This document shows, in pieces, positions 25,058 through 34,839 of a DNA stretch of 64,000 nt. Source of the DNA: Candidatus Flexifilum affinis (GTDB lineage: Bacteria; Chloroflexota; Anaerolineae; Aggregatilineales; Phototrophicaceae); assembly GCA_016713325.1 (NCBI GenBank), contig JADJPJ010000087.1:1-64000 (forward strand), in the 5' to 3' direction. Position 1 is the stretch's first letter; each line of letters begins with the position of its first letter. Under the pieces are notes generated by a model. It worked only from the letters and a program-made list of their open reading frames with translations. It ran no database searches and was not told the origin of the DNA. A program made the translations under genes and the position numbers.

Positions 25058-25086
25058 TTGACAGCCGGCGTTGCCCTGGGTATCAT
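25058..25086 (+). promoter_or_regulatory. Promoter of the arginine operon
   Basis: Perfect TTGACA at 25058-25063, a 17-base spacer and TATCAT at 25081-25086 (one mismatch from TATAAT). Transcription should begin near 25094, just before the leader open frame. It is one of the clearest sigma-70 promoters in the window. Confidence 0.75.
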
Positions 25087-25099
25087 TGTCTCTATTCGC

Positions 25100-25207
25100 A
25101 TGAAGCAATCCAAAGACCAGATCCTGTCTATGATTTCCGTCTGTTTTCTGCGTCCTCGTAGCCGTCGCCCACTGACCACCGAGGTCATGTTGGGAGTTTT
25201 GGCGTAG
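25100..25207 (+). CDS. Arg-rich leader peptide of the argC operon
   Basis: A 35-codon open frame (MKQSKDQILSMISVCF, then LRPRSRRPLTTEVMLGVLA). Translation could also begin at the second in-frame ATG, 25130, giving 25 residues. Four of six consecutive codons, 25151-25168, are Arg (CGT, CGT, CGT, CGC). It starts a few bases after the predicted transcription start and ends about 36 bases before a strong terminator. I infer a regulatory leader peptide on which ribosomes stall when charged tRNA-Arg is scarce. No strong ribosome binding site is seen; initiation may be nearly leaderless from 25100. Confidence 0.6.
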   Translation: MKQSKDQILSMISVCFLRPRSRRPLTTEVMLGVLA

Positions 25208-25280
25208 CGCGGTTACGACTGCCTGGACCTGAGCCAAACTCGACCCCTGACCTCGATGAAGAGGCGGGGGTTTTTGTTTT
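25180..25280 (+). terminator. Attenuator: terminator with competing antiterminator upstream of argC
   Basis: Terminator stem: 25243-25254 pairs with 25261-25271 (A:T, four C:G, T:G, G:C, one bulged A, then CCTC:GAGG), loop GATGAA, followed by TTTTTGTTTT. The 8 bases CGAGGTCA at 25180-25187, inside the leader ORF just after the Arg codons, are perfectly complementary to TGACCTCG at 25248-25255, part of the terminator's 5' arm and loop. A ribosome halted at the Arg codons leaves this element free to block the terminator; a ribosome at the leader stop (25205) would cover or pass it. Confidence 0.65.
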
Positions 25281-25310
25281 CTTGACCTGAAAGGAGTGGA
25301 CTCAACGATA

Positions 25311-26335
25311 ATGCCCGAGCAAGAATCCAAACCTGTGAAAGTTGGCGTCTATGGCGGCAGCGGCTATGCCGGCCAGGATGCCGTGGAGATTCTGGCCAAG
25401 CATCCCTGCGTCGAATTGGTCTTCGCCACCTCGTCGACCTACGCGGGGCAGCGCGTGCCGTTCACCAATCTGCGCTATGTGCAGCCCGACGACGTTCCGC
25501 TCTCCAGCGACGCGGTGGATGCGGTCTTCCTCGCTCTGCCGCACGGCGTTTCTGCGAAAATGGCGGCCCGGGCGCTCGACGTCGGCGTTCGTGTGATCGA
25601 CCTCTCGGCCGACCTGCGTCTGGATACCCCGGAGAGTTACAAGCTTTGGTACGGGCATACCCACCCCCACCCGGATCTGCTCGCTTCAACGCCCTATGGA
25701 CTGCCGGAATTCAATCGCGACCAGCTTCGTGGCGCGCCGGTGGTCGCCGCCCCCGGTTGCTACCCGACCACGACGCTGCTCGGCCTGTATCCACTCCTCA
25801 AGGCAGACTGGATCGTCCACGAAGCACCGATCATCGTCGATGCCAAGTCCGGCGTCAGTGGGGCAGGGCGTGAACCCAAGCCGCACCTGCACTTCGTCGA
25901 GGTCTACAGCAACCTGTCGCCCTACAGCGTCGGCCGTTCGCATCGACATGTGGGGAGATCGAGCAGGAGATGCATAAGATCAACCCAGCCGCCGGTATGC
26001 TGATCTTCACACCGCACCTGCTGCCGGTCGACCGCGGCCTGATGTCGAGCATCTACGTTCCTCTGGCCGATGGCTACAACAGCGCCGACGCGCAGGCGCT
26101 CTATGAAGAAACGTACGCGGGCGAGCCGCTGGTCAATGTGCTGCCGGCCGGCGAGCAGGCGACGCTGAAGCATGTGGTCAGGACCAATGGCTGCGCGATC
26201 AGCGTCACCCCGGCGGCCGACAAGCTGGTCCACGTCACCAGCGTCACGGACAACCTGCGCAAGGGTGCTTCCGGGCAGGCGGTGCAGTGCTTCAATCTGA
26301 TGCTCGGCTTCGAAGAAACGATGGGGCTGCTGTGA
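25311..26335 (+). CDS. argC: N-acetyl-gamma-glutamyl-phosphate reductase (one frameshift)
   Basis: Reduces N-acetylglutamyl phosphate to the semialdehyde with NADPH, third step of arginine synthesis. NAD(P) motif VGVYGGSGYAGQD at the N-terminus; active-site Cys in VAAPGCYPTTTLLGL; KSGVSGAGREPK; C-terminal TPHLLPVDRGLMSS and DNLRKGASGQAVQCFNLM. The frame shifts by one base near 25955 in GTGGGGAGATC, where the expected reading continues as GEIEQEMHKINPA. Full length is about 341 residues. ATG 25311; AAGGAG at 25291 is somewhat distant. Its stop overlaps the argB GTG. Confidence 0.93.
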
Positions 26336-27120
26336 CCCAGGTCATCAAGATCAGTGGGCACGAACTGGACAGCCCGGAATACGTCGAAGCCTTCGTCCGC
26401 GTCGTCGCTGCGCTGCCGGAGCCGCCGGTGATCGTTCATGGCGGCGGCAAGGAGATCAGCCAGCTTCAGGAGCGCATGGGCATCACCCCCCAGTACGTCG
26501 ACGGCGTGCGCGTGACCGACGCGGACTCGCTGGCGCTGGTCGAAATGGTGCTTTGTGGCATGATCAACAAGCGGCTGGTCCGCAACTTCGTCAACGGCGG
26601 TGTCCAGGCGATCGGCCTCTCCGGTGTCGATTTCGGACTGGTGCGCGCGACCAAAATGGCCCATTTGAGTGTGGATATGGGCTTTACCGGTGAGGTTGCG
26701 ATGGTCCGGCCGGACCCCCTCTTGGCGCTGCTTGCTGCCGGCCTGACGCCTATCATTGCGCCCATTTGCCTGGGTACGGCCAGCAACTTCAACGTCAATG
26801 CAGATCACGTCTCCGGCGCGCTCGCTGCGGCAATTGGGGCTGAGCAGCTCGTGTTTCTGTCCAATGTTCCCGGCGTGATGCTCGACGGTCAGGTGCTGCC
26901 CACCCTGACCGATGCTCAGACCGAGGCGATGATCGGCGACCAGACCATCTTCGGCGGCATGATTCCAAAAGTGCGGACGGCGACTGGCGCGCTGCGGCGC
27001 AGCGTACGGGCGGTCGTGATTACAAATCTGGACGGACTGCGGGACGGCACCGGGACCACCATCACAGCGATCACTGAACAGGGACTGCCGCAGGAGGGCT
27101 ATAGCGAGAGAATGGAATGA
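26332..27120 (+). CDS. argB: Acetylglutamate kinase
   Basis: Phosphorylates N-acetylglutamate, second step of arginine synthesis and often the feedback-controlled one. 262 residues from GTG 26332 (VTQVIKISGHELD), which overlaps argC as GTGA. Motifs: VIVHGGGKEISQLQERMG, RVTDADSLALVEMVL, VNADHVSGALAAAIGAEQLV, LSNVPGVM and GGMIPKVRTA. No LysW-type carrier gene is nearby, which favours the arginine rather than the lysine pathway. The protein lacks the long N-terminal extension of hexameric arginine-inhibited forms. Confidence 0.93.
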   Translation: MTQVIKISGHELDSPEYVEAFVRVVAALPEPPVIVHGGGKEISQLQERMGITPQYVDGVRVTDADSLALVEMVLCGMINKRLVRNFVNGGVQAIGLSGVDFGLVRATKMAHLSVDMGFTGEVAMVRPDPLLALLAAGLTPIIAPICLGTASNFNVNADHVSGALAAAIGAEQLVFLSNVPGVMLDGQVLPTLTDAQTEAMIGDQTIFGGMIPKVRTATGALRRSVRAVVITNLDGLRDGTGTTITAITEQGLPQEGYSERME

Positions 27121-27752
27121 GCGGCAAGCAGGTTGATCGGGGCGGAGAAGAGCCGGCGCGCCCGGACCTGAACGAACAGGTCCAGGCGCTTTATGAACTG
27201 GTGCGCTCCATCTATCGCGACAAATACGCGGGCGAACTGCTGGAGAGCTTTGAGGCGGCGTTTGCGGCGCTGCCCGACGAGAACGCGCGGTCGGAAGTGG
27301 TGGCTTCGTGGCTCGACTTCTACCGCCTGCAGCGCTACAAACTGTCGCGTCGACGGAGACGACCCAGGTTTCAGGAGCGGGTGAAAGCCTGCTCGGGCTG
27401 CGGATATCCGACTTCTCAGCGCCATCACCTGTGGGATGTGGCGACGCACGGCGAGAACAAGGTCACGATACAACTCTGCGCGAATTGTCATGAGCTGCAC
27501 CATCTCATGTACAACGCGCTCGTAAAAGGATCGGAATACTCGCGCAAGTTGGTGCTTCACATGCTGTTTTCCGGGCGAATTACGCGTGACACGGCCCTGT
27601 TGATCCTGGGATGGTGTCTGGCCACCATCCGCTATGAGGCCGCCAACGGATGGATCGCGCAGGGCAAAGACCGGCGCGACTGGCTGGAAGAACGGCTGCA
27701 CTGGTCCGAATTCTTGAAGATATACGATGCCAAAGAAGGGGAAGTGAAGTGA
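27117..27752 (+). CDS. HNH-type zinc protein inside the arginine operon
   Basis: 211 residues. Residues about 95-140 form an HNH-like unit: CSGCGYPTSQRHHLWD, then GENKVTIQLCANCHELHH, with two CxxC pairs, the double His and the Asn/His positions of HNH nucleases. The flanking parts are helical and a basic run (KLSRRRRRPRF) precedes the motif, fitting nucleic-acid binding. ATGA overlap with argB and GTG overlap with argD show tight co-translation with biosynthetic genes. Nuclease activity is an inference; a structural or RNA-binding zinc domain is possible. Confidence 0.7.
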   Translation: MSGKQVDRGGEEPARPDLNEQVQALYELVRSIYRDKYAGELLESFEAAFAALPDENARSEVVASWLDFYRLQRYKLSRRRRRPRFQERVKACSGCGYPTSQRHHLWDVATHGENKVTIQLCANCHELHHLMYNALVKGSEYSRKLVLHMLFSGRITRDTALLILGWCLATIRYEAANGWIAQGKDRRDWLEERLHWSEFLKIYDAKEGEVK

Positions 27753-28945
27753 TCGCGAGTATCAGCACCAACTGGGTGATCGAGCAGGATGCTGCCCACG
27801 TCGTCCAAACCTACAAGCGGCCGCCGTTCGTCCTAGCGCGCGGCGAAGGCGTGACGGTCTACGATGCCGAGGGCAATGCCTATCTGGACTGGGTGGCCGG
27901 CATCGCCGTGAACGCGCTTGGCTACGGCGACCCAGGGCTGACCGCTGCCATTCAGCGCGCGGCCGAAGGGCTGCTGCACACCAGCAACCTGTATTACACT
28001 GAAGCGCAGGCATCTCTCGCGGTCGCCCTGACCGATCGGTCGTTTGCCGACCGCGTCTTTTTCAGCAACAGCGGCACGGAAGCCAACGAAGGCGCGCTCA
28101 AGTTCGCCCGGCGCGTGGCCTATGACTCCGGCGAAGAGGGCAAGCACGAACTCGTCTGCTTCACGGATGCTTTCCACGGCCGTACGCTTGGCTCGCTTTC
28201 CCTGACGCCCAAAGAAAAGTACCAGCAGCCGTTCAAACCGCTTGTCCCCGGCGTCAAGGTCGCCACCTTCAACGACATCGCCAGCGCTCGTGAGGCCATC
28301 ACCGACAAGACCGCCGCCGTGTTCATCGAGCCGCTGCAGGGCGAAGGCGGCATCAACGCGGCGACGCCGGAATTTCTGGGCGCGCTGCGCGAACTCTGCA
28401 ACCAGCATGGCGCGCTCCTGATCTTCGACGAGGTGCAGTGCGGCGTTGGACGCACCGGCACTCTGTGGGGGCACGAGCCGGCCGGCGTCACGCCGGACAT
28501 CATGACGTTGGCCAAGCCGCTGGCCGGCGGCCTGCCCATTGGCGCGATCCTCACGACCGACGCCGTGGCCAGTCATCTGCACGCCGGCGATCACGGCTCG
28601 ACCTTCGCCGGCAGCCCGTTCATCACCAGCGTGGCGCGCTACGTCCTGGAGCGCATTGCCGAACCCTCGTTCCTGGCGCATGTCCGCGGCGTGGGCGAAT
28701 ATCTCAAGGAGCGGCTGGAAGAGATCAACAGCCCGCACATCAAGCAGGTGCGCGGCCGTGGTTTGATGGTCGGCATGGAGCTGGACGTGGAAGCCGCACC
28801 CCTTATCGATGCCGGATACAAGAACGGACTGCTGCTGGTCAACGCAGGCACGAATGTCGTGCGACTGGTGCCCCCGCTGGTGGTGCAAACCGAGCATGTC
28901 GACACGCTGGTCGAACGCCTGACCGGCATGCTGGCCGCTCTCTAG
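27749..28945 (+). CDS. argD: Acetylornithine aminotransferase
   Basis: PLP enzyme converting N-acetylglutamate semialdehyde to N-acetylornithine. 398 residues from GTG 27749, which overlaps the HNH gene's stop. Class III motifs: YLDWVAGIAVNALGYGDP, NSGTEANEGALKFAR, FHGRTLGSLSLT, PLQGEGGINAA, LIFDEVQCGVGRTG, and the PLP Lys in MTLAKPLAGGLPIGA. Some class members also act on other omega-amino acids; context supports arginine synthesis. Confidence 0.93.
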   Translation: MIASISTNWVIEQDAAHVVQTYKRPPFVLARGEGVTVYDAEGNAYLDWVAGIAVNALGYGDPGLTAAIQRAAEGLLHTSNLYYTEAQASLAVALTDRSFADRVFFSNSGTEANEGALKFARRVAYDSGEEGKHELVCFTDAFHGRTLGSLSLTPKEKYQQPFKPLVPGVKVATFNDIASAREAITDKTAAVFIEPLQGEGGINAATPEFLGALRELCNQHGALLIFDEVQCGVGRTGTLWGHEPAGVTPDIMTLAKPLAGGLPIGAILTTDAVASHLHAGDHGSTFAGSPFITSVARYVLERIAEPSFLAHVRGVGEYLKERLEEINSPHIKQVRGRGLMVGMELDVEAAPLIDAGYKNGLLLVNAGTNVVRLVPPLVVQTEHVDTLVERLTGMLAAL

Positions 28946-28960
28946 CTGAATCTGACCTAG

Positions 28961-30217
28961 ATGCCTGCCTCTCACACTCAGGATATGCAGATGACTGATG
29001 CGACCGTAGTTTCGCGAACCGTTGCCGGCTTTCGGACCGCCGGCGTTTATTGTGGACTGAAGGCGGACGGCGTCCTGGACTTTGCCCTCATTGCCAGCGA
29101 CTCGCCCTGCATTGCCGCCGGGGTTTTCACGACTAATCACGTCAAGGCCGCGCCTGTCCTCTTTAACATGGAGGTGCTGGCGCAGTCCAGCGAGGGCATC
29201 CGCGCCGTGGCGGTCAACACCCGCTGCGCCAATGCCTGCACGGGCGAGCAGGGTCTGGCAAACGCCAAAGAAATGGCTCGTCTGACGGCGGAAAAACTCG
29301 GCGTCCCGGTCGAGTCGGTGTTGGTGATGTCGACCGGCGTGATCGGCACCCAGCTCCCCATGGAGAAGATCGCTCGCGGTGTGGCGCTCTCGTCCGCCGA
29401 CCTGCGTGCGGATGATGCCGCGTGGCATGCCGCCTCCCAGGGCATCATGACCACCGATACACGCCCCAAGATCGCCTCCGCGGCTGTATCGCTTTCCGGC
29501 GGACAGGTGCATATCACGGGCATCGCCAAGGGCGCCGGGATGATCGCGCCAAACATGGCCACCATGCTCAGCGTCATCGTCACCGACGCGGCGCTGTCGA
29601 TCGAGCAGTGCCAGCGGCTGCTGCGCCAGTCGTCGGATGTCAGCTTCAACCGGATCGTGGTGGATGGCGATACCAGCACCAACGACACCGTGCTGCTCCT
29701 GGCCAATGGCGCCAGTGGTGCGTCGCTGGCGTCAGCGGCGGACGAGTCGGCGTTCATGGCGGCACTGGTCGCTGTCAGCACGCAGTTGGCCCAGGCCGTC
29801 GTGCGCGATGGCGAAGGCGCGACCAAGTTCATCACCATCGATGTCACCGGCGCGCCGGACGACGCGGCGGCCAAGCAGATCGCCAACACCATCGCCACCT
29901 CGCCGCTGGTCAAGACGGCCTTCTACGGCGGCGATGCCAACTGGGGACGCATCGTGGCGGCGGCCGGTCGTGCAGGTATCCCGATGGACCCTGAGGTGAC
30001 GACGCTGGTCATCGCCAGGGCGGGAGAGCAGGACGGGCTGCTGCTTTTCGCCGATGGCATGCCGACCGCCTACGATGAAACCCTCGCGACGGAGATTGTC
30101 AAAGCCGAGTCCGTCGATGTCCGGCTCAGCGTGGGGCAGGGGAGCGGCGCCGCCATCGTCTGGACGTGCGACCTCAGCCATGATTACGTCTCCATCAATG
30201 GTCATTATCGCAGCTAG
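28961..30217 (+). CDS. argJ: Bifunctional ornithine acetyltransferase / N-acetylglutamate synthase
   Basis: Transfers acetyl from N-acetylornithine to glutamate, giving the cyclic arginine pathway, and may also make N-acetylglutamate from acetyl-CoA. About 418 residues. The self-cleavage site with the nucleophilic Thr lies in KGAGMIAPNMATMLS. Other motifs: GVFTTNHVKAAPV, DGDTSTNDTVLLLANG, FYGGDANWGRI and the terminal YVSINGHYRS. Candidate starts are ATG 28961 or Met11 at 28991. It follows argD by 15 bases. No argA-like gene is visible in the window. Confidence 0.94.
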   Translation: MPASHTQDMQMTDATVVSRTVAGFRTAGVYCGLKADGVLDFALIASDSPCIAAGVFTTNHVKAAPVLFNMEVLAQSSEGIRAVAVNTRCANACTGEQGLANAKEMARLTAEKLGVPVESVLVMSTGVIGTQLPMEKIARGVALSSADLRADDAAWHAASQGIMTTDTRPKIASAAVSLSGGQVHITGIAKGAGMIAPNMATMLSVIVTDAALSIEQCQRLLRQSSDVSFNRIVVDGDTSTNDTVLLLANGASGASLASAADESAFMAALVAVSTQLAQAVVRDGEGATKFITIDVTGAPDDAAAKQIANTIATSPLVKTAFYGGDANWGRIVAAAGRAGIPMDPEVTTLVIARAGEQDGLLLFADGMPTAYDETLATEIVKAESVDVRLSVGQGSGAAIVWTCDLSHDYVSINGHYRS

Positions 30218-30226
30218 GAGTCGAGT

Positions 30227-31452
<1,226 letters not shown>

Positions 31453-31456
<4 letters not shown>

Positions 31457-31635
31457 TGCTGATTGGGCGTGGGCCCAGGCTGTTCGCTAATGAAATCAGG
31501 TTGTGGAAACGCAGAACCCCGCTTGTTCGCACCACGACATGGGAACGACTCAATGTTCTCAGAGGGTGCATGATACTCGGCGTATGGATAGTGATAGCGA
31601 TTCTCATGCTCAATCTACTCATGAACGGCGCATAG
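31453..31635 (+). CDS. Short open frame with a hydrophobic C-terminus before carB
   Basis: 60 codons ending [20 protein letters not shown], one possible membrane segment, with the stop 5 bases before carB. The surrounding 200 bases have lower GC than the operon and begin right after the G-rich block. I cannot tell whether it is a genuine small protein, a leader, or a fragment brought in by a misjoin. No family recognised. Confidence 0.25.
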
Positions 31636-31640
31636 GACGA

Positions 31641-34600
31641 ATGCCAAAACGAACAGACATCCAGACCATCCTGGTCATCGGCTCCGGCCCCATCGTCATC
31701 GGCCAGGGCTGCGAATTTGACTACAGCGGGGTGCAGGCGTGCAAAGTGCTGCGGGCGCAGGGCTACCGCGTTGTCCTGGTCAACAGCAACCCGGCCACCA
31801 TCATGACCGACCCGGAATTCGCAGACGCGACGTATGTCGAGCCGCTGTCACCGGACATCGTCGAACGCATCATCGAGGCCGAGAAGCCCGATGCGCTGCT
31901 TCCCACCGTCGGCGGGCAGACGGCGCTCAACCTGGCGATGACCCTGGCCGAGTCCGGCGTTCTGGCCAAGCACAATATCGAACTCATTGGCGCGCGCCTG
32001 GAGAGTATTCAGCTGGCCGAAGATCGCCAGTTGTTCAAGGACGCCATGCTGGAGATCGGCCTCCAGTGCCCGGAAAGCGAAGTGGTCGGCACGATCGAGC
32101 ATGCGCTGCGCGTCGCCGAGCGCATCGACTACCCGGTGCTGATCCGTCCCTCGTTCACCCTAGGCGGTTCGGGCGGCGGCATCGCCTACAGCCCGGAAGA
32201 TCTGGCCTCGGTCGCCGAGCGCGGCCTGAAGCTCAGCCCCGTGCACCAGGTGCTCATCGAGCGCAGTGTGCTGGGCTGGAAGGAATACGAACTGGAAGTG
32301 ATGCGCGACACGGCCGGCAACTTTGTGGTCGTGTGCACCATCGAGAACCTCGATCCGATGGGCGTGCACACCGGCGACAGCATCACCGTGGCGCCGGCCC
32401 AGACTCTGACGGACAAAGAGCTTCAGCGTCTGCGTAATGCCGCCAAAAAGGTGCTTGACCGCATCGGGCTGGCGACGGGTGGCGCGAATGTGCAGTTTGC
32501 CGTCAACCCCGCCGATGGGCAGGTGTACGTCATCGAGATGAACCCGCGTGTCTCGCGGTCGTCGGCGCTGGCCAGTAAGGCGACCGGTTTTCCGATCGCC
32601 AAGATCGCCGCGCTCCTGGCCGTGGGCTACAGTTTGGACGAGATTCCTAACGACATCACGCGGGTGACGCCGGCCTCCTTCGAACCGTCGCTCGACTATG
32701 TGGTCGTGAAGATTCCGCGCTGGGATTTCGACAAGTTTCCCGGCGCCGACCGCACCCTGGGCCCGCAGATGAAGGCGATTGGCGAGGTGATGGCCATCGG
32801 TCGCACCTTCCCGGAGGCGCTGCAAAAGGCCATTCGCTCGCTGGATATCGGCATGCTCGGCTTCGGCGCGAAAGTCATGCAGGTGACGCCGGAATCGCTG
32901 CGCATGCCGACGGCGCAGCGCCTGTTCCAGGTGGCGACGGCTCTCACCGATGGAACCCCGCTGGATGAGATCGTCGCGACCACCGGCTTTGACGCCTGGT
33001 TCGTGCGCCAGCTCGGCGATATGGCGGCGGCGCGGCGCGGGCTGCTCCCGGAGGGCGCGAAGCTGGCCGATCTCGACGCCGACTCCTTTCTGGCGCTGAA
33101 GCAGCTCGGCTACGGCGATGCCCATCTTTCGCGTCTGCTCGGCGTGTCGGAGCTGGAGGTTCGCGGCCATCGCAAAGCCCTTGACGTCGTGCCCAGCTTC
33201 TATCGCGTCGACACCTGCGCGGCGGAGTTCGAGGCCTTCACTCCCTATCTGTATTCGACCTACGAGCCGGAAGACGAGAGCGCGCCGACTGAGCGCAAAA
33301 AGGTGCTCATCCTCGGTGGCGGGCCGAATCGCATCGGGCAGGGGATCGAGTTCGACTACTGCTGCGTCCATGCCTGTTTCGCCCTGCACGACCTGGGCTA
33401 TGAGACGATCATGGTCAACTGCAACCCCGAGACGGTCAGTACCGACTACGACACCGCCGACCGTTTGTACTTCGAACCGATCACGACCGAGGATGTGCTC
33501 AACGTCGTCGATCGCGAAATGCCGGATGGCGTGCTGGTGCAGTTCGGCGGTCAGACTCCGCTGAACATCGCCCGGTCGCTGGCGGAGGGCGGTGCGACCA
33601 TCTGGGGGACGTCGGTCGATACTATCGATCTTGCGGAGGATCGCAAGCGCTTCCATGGTCTGATGCAGGATCTGGAGATCGCCCAGCCCTCCGGTGCCAC
33701 AGTTCTGACGCGTGAAGAGGCTCTGGTTGCCGCCGATCTCGATCGGCTACCCGGTGCTGGTCCGCCCCAGCTACGTCCTCGGTGGGCGTGACATGGCCAT
33801 CGTCTTCGACCAGCAGATGCTGGAGGCGTGGCTGGATAAGCACCTGGAGGCGCTTGGACACCCGGTGCTGATCGACCAGTTTCTCGACGATGCCTTCGAG
33901 ATCGACGTCGACGCGCTGTGCGATGGCGAGCGCGTGACCATCGGCGGCATCATGCAGCACATCGAGGAAGCGGGCGTCCACAGCGGCGACTCGGCCTGTG
34001 TGCTGCCTCCCTACAAAGTCAGCTACTACCATGTCGAAATCATTCGCGAGTACACCGAACGCATTGGCAAGGCGTTGGGTGTGCGCGGACTGTTCAACAT
34101 TCAGTTCGCGATTAAGGATGAGGTGGTCTACGTCCTGGAAGTGAATCCGCGCGCCAGCCGCACTGTGCCCTTCGTCAGCAAGGCGACTGGCATTCCCCTG
34201 GCGCGCTACGCGGCGGAGATCGCGGCCGGCAGGACACTCGCCGAAATCGGCTTCCTGGAAGAACCCCGAGTCGATGGCTTCTTCGTCAAAGAGGCGGTGC
34301 TGCCGTTCCAGAAGTTCCCCGGTGTCGACGCTCGTCTCGGCCCGGAGATGCGCTCGACCGGCGAAGTGATGGGCCATGCATCGAGCTTTGGCCATGCCTT
34401 TGCTAAGGCCGAGCTGGCGGCCAATACGGCACTGCCTGACAGTGGCACGGTGTTCATCAGCGTCAACAACTTCGACAAGGGCGCAGTCGTGAAGATCGCC
34501 CGGGACCTGCACCAGTTGGGCTTCGAACTGATGGCCACCGAAGGCACGGCCTCTCTGCTCCGGTCGGTGGAGATTCCTGCCCGCACGATCAACAAGGTGA

Positions 34601-34839
34601 GCGATGGCTCGCCGCACGTGGTCGATGCCATTCGCGCGGGGGAAATCCAACTGATCATCAACACCCCGCGTGGCGGTCAGGCGCACTACGACGGTGGACT
34701 GATTCGCGGAGCGGCGGCGCTGTACAACGTGCCGATCATTACGACGTTGAGCGCGGCCACCGCGGCGGTGCAGGGCATCAAGGCGGTGCGCACCAAACCG
34801 CTGCGTGTGCGTAGTCTGCAAATTCACCACGGCCTGTAA
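31641..34839 (+). CDS. carB: Carbamoyl-phosphate synthase large subunit (one frameshift)
   Basis: Makes carbamoyl phosphate from ammonia, bicarbonate and two ATP, for arginine and pyrimidines. About 1066 residues from ATG 31641 ([20 protein letters not shown]). The two ATP-grasp halves are complete: [34 protein letters not shown], then [53 protein letters not shown], and the allosteric MGS-like domain ([20 protein letters not shown]). The frame shifts by one base near 33740-33750, between EEALVAADL and [10 protein letters not shown]. Last gene of the arg-car operon. Confidence 0.95.

Follow-up and report, generated by a model that had tools for sequence, protein, structure and literature searches.

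The 64,000-nt stretch of DNA analysed here (the window) carries, upstream of argC, a leader that we read, with a probability of roughly 0.88, as a ribosome-mediated transcription attenuator of the trp/his type. Judged by sequence comparison, the leader would sense charged arginyl-tRNA and control argC-argB-(unnamed)-argD-argJ-carA-carB. Its parts, their conservation, a complementarity that is kept while its letters change and the amino-acid specificity were observed directly. The following features were located.

25058..25086, + strand: sigma-70-type promoter, TTGACA-17-TATCAT, 11/12 matches
25100..25207, + strand: leader ORF, 35 codons from ATG 25100; alternative ATG 25130 gives 25 codons
25151..25168, + strand: Arg codon run, CGT CCT CGT AGC CGT CGC = R P R S R R
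25168..25194, + strand: region 1:2 hairpin, core 25173-25177 with 25183-25187, outer CCCA/TGGG
25180..25187, + strand: region 2, antiterminator 5′ strand, exact reverse complement of 25248-25255
25194..25204, + strand: match to the G-10 Y-1 G+1 pause consensus (G 25194, C 25203, G 25204), part of GGGAGTTTTGGCG
25242..25279, + strand: intrinsic terminator, regions 3:4, stem 25242-25272, T-run 25271-25279
25248..25255, + strand: region 3, antiterminator 3′ strand, within the terminator 5′ arm and loop
25311..26335, + strand: argC, predicted first controlled gene, reading frame interrupted near 25950 in the assembly
26335..34839, + strand: rest of the operon: argB, unnamed Cys/His protein, argD, argJ, carA, carB

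The original prediction had placed before argC a promoter, a leader ORF of 25-35 codons with four Arg in six, an 8-base element after these codons with its exact complement in the 5′ arm and loop of a terminator, and the strong terminator itself. All of these were recovered, with coordinates shifting by 1-2 bases. Between 24900 and 25500 the listed promoter was the single call (shuffles average 0.2). ATG 25100, located 13 nt past the -10 box, is a candidate start codon, and for either start the ORF ends at TAG 25205-25207; a clear Shine-Dalgarno sequence was absent on inspection of the ORF by eye. Arg codons start at 25151, 25157, 25163 and 25166. Folding of the terminator region 25235-25282 gave -22.3 kcal/mol (z -3.8). 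A simple terminator scan, the description of which makes no mention of bulges as allowed, gave no call in the leader region of the window; the stem has a one-base bulge. Taken for the window by itself, the 8-mer complementarity was equalled in 0.5% of 200 runs with the post-Arg segment shuffled and in 10% of swaps with the terminators of other loci. Downstream, family matches were obtained for ArgC, ArgB (amino acid kinase), ArgD (class-III aminotransferase), ArgJ, CarA and CarB.

Two further elements, absent from the original prediction, are the hairpin at 25168-25194 and the pause-like motif at 25194/25203/25204. The hairpin ends in and overlaps the 8-mer (25180-25187); 25168-25200 folded with -12.3 kcal/mol (z -2.0). 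It is probably a pause or anti-antiterminator hairpin, and together with the pause motif it would fit a synchronising pause. Close relatives carry a stretch similar to the GGGAGTTTTGGCG region of the window. The definition of the pause consensus was taken from a passage of PMC9291695.

A stalled ribosome had been expected to leave the antiterminator free. If the edge of the stalled ribosome is placed ~12 nt downstream of the A-site codon's first base, this holds for the last Arg pair (25163-25168), where a stall covers the upstream strand 25173-25177 wholly or partly and the 8-mer is free. It does not hold for the first two Arg codons, where a stall should leave the 1:2 hairpin free. Toeprints at +13 of a slowly decoded A-site Arg codon are described in a passage of PMC13009471; for a stall at 25166-25168 such an edge lies at ~25178, just before region 2 and past region 1.

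Related loci were compared, as the original prediction had suggested. Arg codons, complementarity and terminator co-occur and co-change across Chloroflexota, with exceptions, and this comparative evidence is strongly in favour of the arginine attenuator reading. Among at least 120 homologues listed for an ArgC piece, named entries were mostly Anaerolineae or Chloroflexota metagenome proteins. An ArgC-alignment scan of named genomes gave at least 594 loci, of which the best 80 were taken, and the upstream argC regions of 23 Chloroflexota loci were inspected. With the window included, a terminator preceded argC in 20/24 named Chloroflexota loci; within range it was missing at L016, L019, L067 and L068 (4/24), L019 having a hairpin whose T-run was passed over by the terminator rule.

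In the related class, a terminator-like hairpin with T-run was found ≤260 nt upstream of canonical argC in 60/69 cases and was missing in range at 9/69. These 69 genes are a fetched subset of the listed rows plus L152, no full census, with relatedness uncollapsed. Paralogous argC-like genes of the same class had a terminator within this distance in 1/20, canonical genes and paralogues being separated by the analyst according to how far the argC profile matched. The shuffle control on 67 canonical regions gave 15/670. In many class genomes, G015 for example, there is a further argC-like gene whose profile match extends to the end and which mostly lacks a leader. Phylum-wide best hits (L123-L151) had a terminator in 1/29; these 29 match the profile to the end like paralogues and are thus no proof that canonical argC is without the leader in other classes. 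In the class of G016, which a related Kouleothrix locus suggests to be Chloroflexia, a leader was present at 7/22 canonical-type argC genes examined, five being nearly identical, and absent at the other 15/22.

A covariance model (R1), run with strict filters and scoring 10 candidates a genome, gave 27 places in 25/298 class genomes, 19 of which were arg leaders on inspection. The other 8/27 (L111, L112, L115, L117-L120 and L122) were unconvincing, and eight weaker places (L089-L096) look like chance. A plasmid search with the leader DNA returned zero matches. In one 23-row alignment, 3/23 rows were opposite-strand matches. The locus titled Pleurocapsa minor (L003) has a Chloroflexota leader, and its ArgC shares 70% identity with the Chloroflexota query; its organism label looks wrong.

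For amino-acid enrichment and complementarity, terminator-bearing regions were used with near-identicals collapsed, resulting in 71 regions and then 70 (ORF with at least 2 Arg in 7 codons). Clustering of Arg in short ORFs of the 71 regions reached z 11.3 among 20 amino acids, followed by Pro with 1.7. At least 4 Arg per 8 codons were present in 44/71 regions (12.5 expected) and at least 3 per 8 in 65/71 (38.8 expected). An Arg-bearing short ORF was missing by rule in 1/71 (L179), and 7 further regions had just 2 Arg in 7 codons. Arg was outside the six highest z values both for paralogues (21 regions) and for phylum-wide best hits (28 regions); the canonical set used for enrichment omits canonical L169 and L178, which its paralogue set includes.

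Across 63 leaders with at least 3 Arg, the run codons were CGT (94), CGC (79), AGG (42), CGA (16), CGG (11) and AGA (3), giving 49 CGN-majority and 14 AGR-majority leaders. The codon family changes while the amino acid stays, which argues for selection on the amino acid. In nine complete or partial genes of the window, CGC is the most used Arg codon and CGG the second. Seven close relatives (L001-L007) share the same layout, in which EV follows RRRSRRP or a variant of this Arg run. Promoter calls were obtained for 56/63 leaders (window included), and 51/56 score at least 9 of 12 with a start codon behind. In 17/51 leaders this codon lies 6-11 nt past the -10 box (window 13 nt), suggesting as a lead, with start codons chosen by rule, that leader peptides may be leaderless or nearly so.

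The post-Arg segment and the terminator arm had a mean complementarity score of 18.8 over 70 loci, versus 14.3 for shuffles (z 15.3) and 15.1 for between-locus swaps. Taken singly, 32/70 loci had p≤0.05 and 38/70 lay above, and 18/70 were within the top 5% of partner swaps. GAGGTCA faces TGACCTC in L001-L007, with small departures in L006 and L007. In more distant loci the letters are replaced: GGTCTGG faces CCAGGCC in L014, CCGGTCTGG faces CCAGACCGG in L009, TGAGGTTCG faces CGAACCTCA in L011, GGGCCCGG faces CCGGGCTC in L017 and CCGTCTGGA faces TCCAGACGG in L211. L008 and L116 have a mismatch within 2:3. Pairing is kept while letters change together, and the antiterminator shares the 5′ arm of the terminator. 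L010 and L011 keep TTTGCGTTGG in another frame than L005 and L006, which favours a nucleic-acid role.

Forty of the 70 loci were selected for at least 3 Arg, a 2:3 score of at least 18 and region 2 within 22 nt. Here region 2 starts at a median of 11.5 nt past the last Arg codon (range 2-21; window 11 nt), a placement of the codon run that would let a stalled ribosome free region 2. Partial transcripts, from the start of region 2 to past region 3, had a 2:3 probability of at least 0.5 in 39/40 loci, a result that is partly by construction since good complementarity was a selection criterion. Folding of the full-length RNA favours the terminator, also when region 1 is left off (median P(2:3) 0.0 over the 40 loci, L009 being an exception). 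Because the terminator dominates as soon as region 4 has been added, the antiterminator has to act kinetically; the trp attenuation switch is generally held to be kinetic.

The 1:2 hairpin scored a mean of 14.3 versus 10.7 for shuffles in the 40 loci, with p≤0.05 in 11/40 and p 0.31 in the window, giving modest support across loci for a 1:2 hairpin that would exclude the antiterminator. One pause-motif pattern was found in 13/40 selected loci versus 8.0 expected (z 2.1) and a second in 13/40 versus 5.5 expected (z 3.7), a modest enrichment over this wider set.

From this layout we infer that the leader is translated, that the ribosome stalls in it, that polymerase pauses and which way control runs. 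RNA polymerase would transcribe the leader and probably lose speed where the first hairpin and the pause motif lie, so that a ribosome can close up to it. A shortage of Arg-tRNA would halt the ribosome while the last Arg codons occupy its A site; region 1 (25173-25177) would then be covered, and region 2 (25180-25187) would stay accessible. Once transcribed, region 3 (25248-25255) would pair with region 2, the terminator would be barred and the operon read. When Arg-tRNA is plentiful, the ribosome would reach the stop at 25205-25207 and either mask region 2 or depart so that 1:2 forms. Region 3 would then pair with region 4, and transcription would stop before argC.

The fungal arginine attenuator peptide is an example of exit-tunnel stalling on arginine, and the recurrence of Arg runs and Pro-Arg pairs among the leaders would agree with an Arg-rich nascent peptide stalling in the exit tunnel here, possibly on free arginine. 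We consider this improbable. Beyond Arg the peptides differ greatly (PRRRSRRP, RSPRR, RRIRRR, RRPRM), region 2 follows the codons at about the ribosome-edge distance, and stalling at high arginine would turn synthesis on when it is unneeded. Slightly less credible still is a constitutive terminator with a translated uORF that only blocks or couples transcription, the Arg codons being incidental. A looser rule did find a terminator before argC in 21/57 loci of other phyla, with an Arg-bearing ORF flagged in 16; however, 10/16 of these ORFs end in RRxKQFSKR-like tails and thus belong to a neighbouring gene, which we take to be that of ribosomal protein S9. Against this explanation also stand the strong enrichment of Arg alone in relatives of the window and a complementarity kept far above shuffles. 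The S9-like ORF ends before argC (10/57 other-phyla loci, L020-L080) are a trap for Arg-run searches.

Bacterial arginine synthesis is usually explained by ArgR or T-boxes, ArgR being a known way of arginine control. Action of this repressor, or of an ORF-free RNA (T-box or riboswitch), would be an established type of control, Arg T-boxes being described in a passage of PMC1262725, and yet we hold it the least credible account of this leader. ArgR (PF01316) was above cut-off in 1/140 class genomes, a set outside which the window's own genome lies, and in 3/140 at E≤0.001. The sole genome above cut-off passed it by half a bit over 45/70 positions, whereas control genomes were matched in 9/14, with 8/14 above cut-off. 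A T-box or other known Rfam leader was rejected on covariance models, the window region having no Rfam match at E≤1 and 10 related loci none at gathering scores.

Returning to the attenuator reading, an Arg leader with terminator also precedes argG in G036 and G078 and argD in G149. Among 30 argG loci, 12 had a terminator, and 10 of these also an ORF with at least 3 Arg in 7 codons, a count made without shuffle control. The argG leader of a close relative (L264 of G003) contains CGT CGT CGC CGC; the argG leaders L248, L261 and L265 are doubtful. As further members, argF (terminator 2/30, Arg-bearing ORF 2) and argS (terminator 5/30, Arg-bearing ORF 3) were rejected, none being convincing by eye. 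For Anaerolineae and some Chloroflexia we lean towards a repressor-free regulon, in which Arg-codon attenuators would replace ArgR at the argC operon, at argG and sometimes at argD. Many leader peptides would then be leaderless or nearly so, the ribosome loading at the RNA 5′ end before the switch.

The Rfam Trp, His and Leu leaders are ribosome-mediated transcription attenuators. With trp, his and leu attenuators the present leaders have in common cognate codons in a leader ORF, a choice between 2:3 and 3:4 pairing, an intrinsic terminator and a hairpin with pause motif. Unlike them, arginine would be sensed here, the targets are argC, argG and argD, an Rfam family match is lacking, and some Arg leaders start 6-11 nt past the -10 box. 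The hisL and leuL pauses bear the G-10 Y-1 G+1 consensus according to a passage of PMC9291695.

Passages from PMC5864092, PMC8632094, PMC9045200, PMC1262725, PMC4046766, PMC13009471, PMC6386406 and PMC4046918 were compared. In the Salmonella speF leader ORF34, consecutive Arg codons, ribosome pausing and alternative RNA structures likewise sense arginine; Rho, RNase G and an RBS-sequestering structure are its own features, and ornithine decarboxylase is controlled (PMC6386406, passage compared). A leader of the ORF34 type was rejected here, the downstream gene being argC and not that of ornithine decarboxylase. The S. aureus rbfL leader peptide also senses Arg-tRNA supply by Arg codons in a short uORF; there the rbf RBS is blocked (translation control), a terminator switch is lacking and low arginine represses (PMC13009471, passage compared). 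Actinobacteria have attenuators of the classical type outside Proteobacteria, for trp, leu, ilv and cys, and the passage compared from this 2005 survey states that conserved RNA structure upstream of arginine operons was not observed (PMC1262725). A leader peptide without ribosome binding site, as may apply here, is named for C. glutamicum ilvBNC in a reference title in PMC4046766. The original prediction had called an arginine version much less familiar. In the open full-text literature searched, most subscription journals lying outside it, and in the passages obtained, an Arg-codon transcription attenuator for arginine synthesis was unreported.

Arginine would thus be an added amino acid for a known attenuator mechanism that appears widespread in its clade. 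If true, the list of attenuators gains an amino acid, and the leaders would illustrate a change of regulatory mechanism in a conserved pathway, in lineages seemingly without ArgR. They would also provide a sequence handle to annotate how argC, argG and argD are controlled in uncultured Chloroflexota, and the many variants of the switch that occur in nature would help to test which codon, pause and helix matter.

Several observations concern the operon itself. The argC frame break lies at 25940-25965 and is possibly an assembly error; residues 1-216 are matched in a frame that runs to 25958, residues 214-341 in a second frame starting at 25949. The 3′ end of carA (31355-31445) is a long G-rich low-complexity stretch, which looks like a sequencing or assembly artefact, and carB is split over two frames (31503-33791 and 33712-34839). 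The argB/argD interval (27117-27752) encodes the unnamed protein, with the Cys/His pairs CSGCGY and CANCHELHH. It matched no Pfam family above cut-off and is HNH-like by eye. Homologues were found in 4/15 related loci searched (L001, L002, L004 and L006), also between argB and argD.
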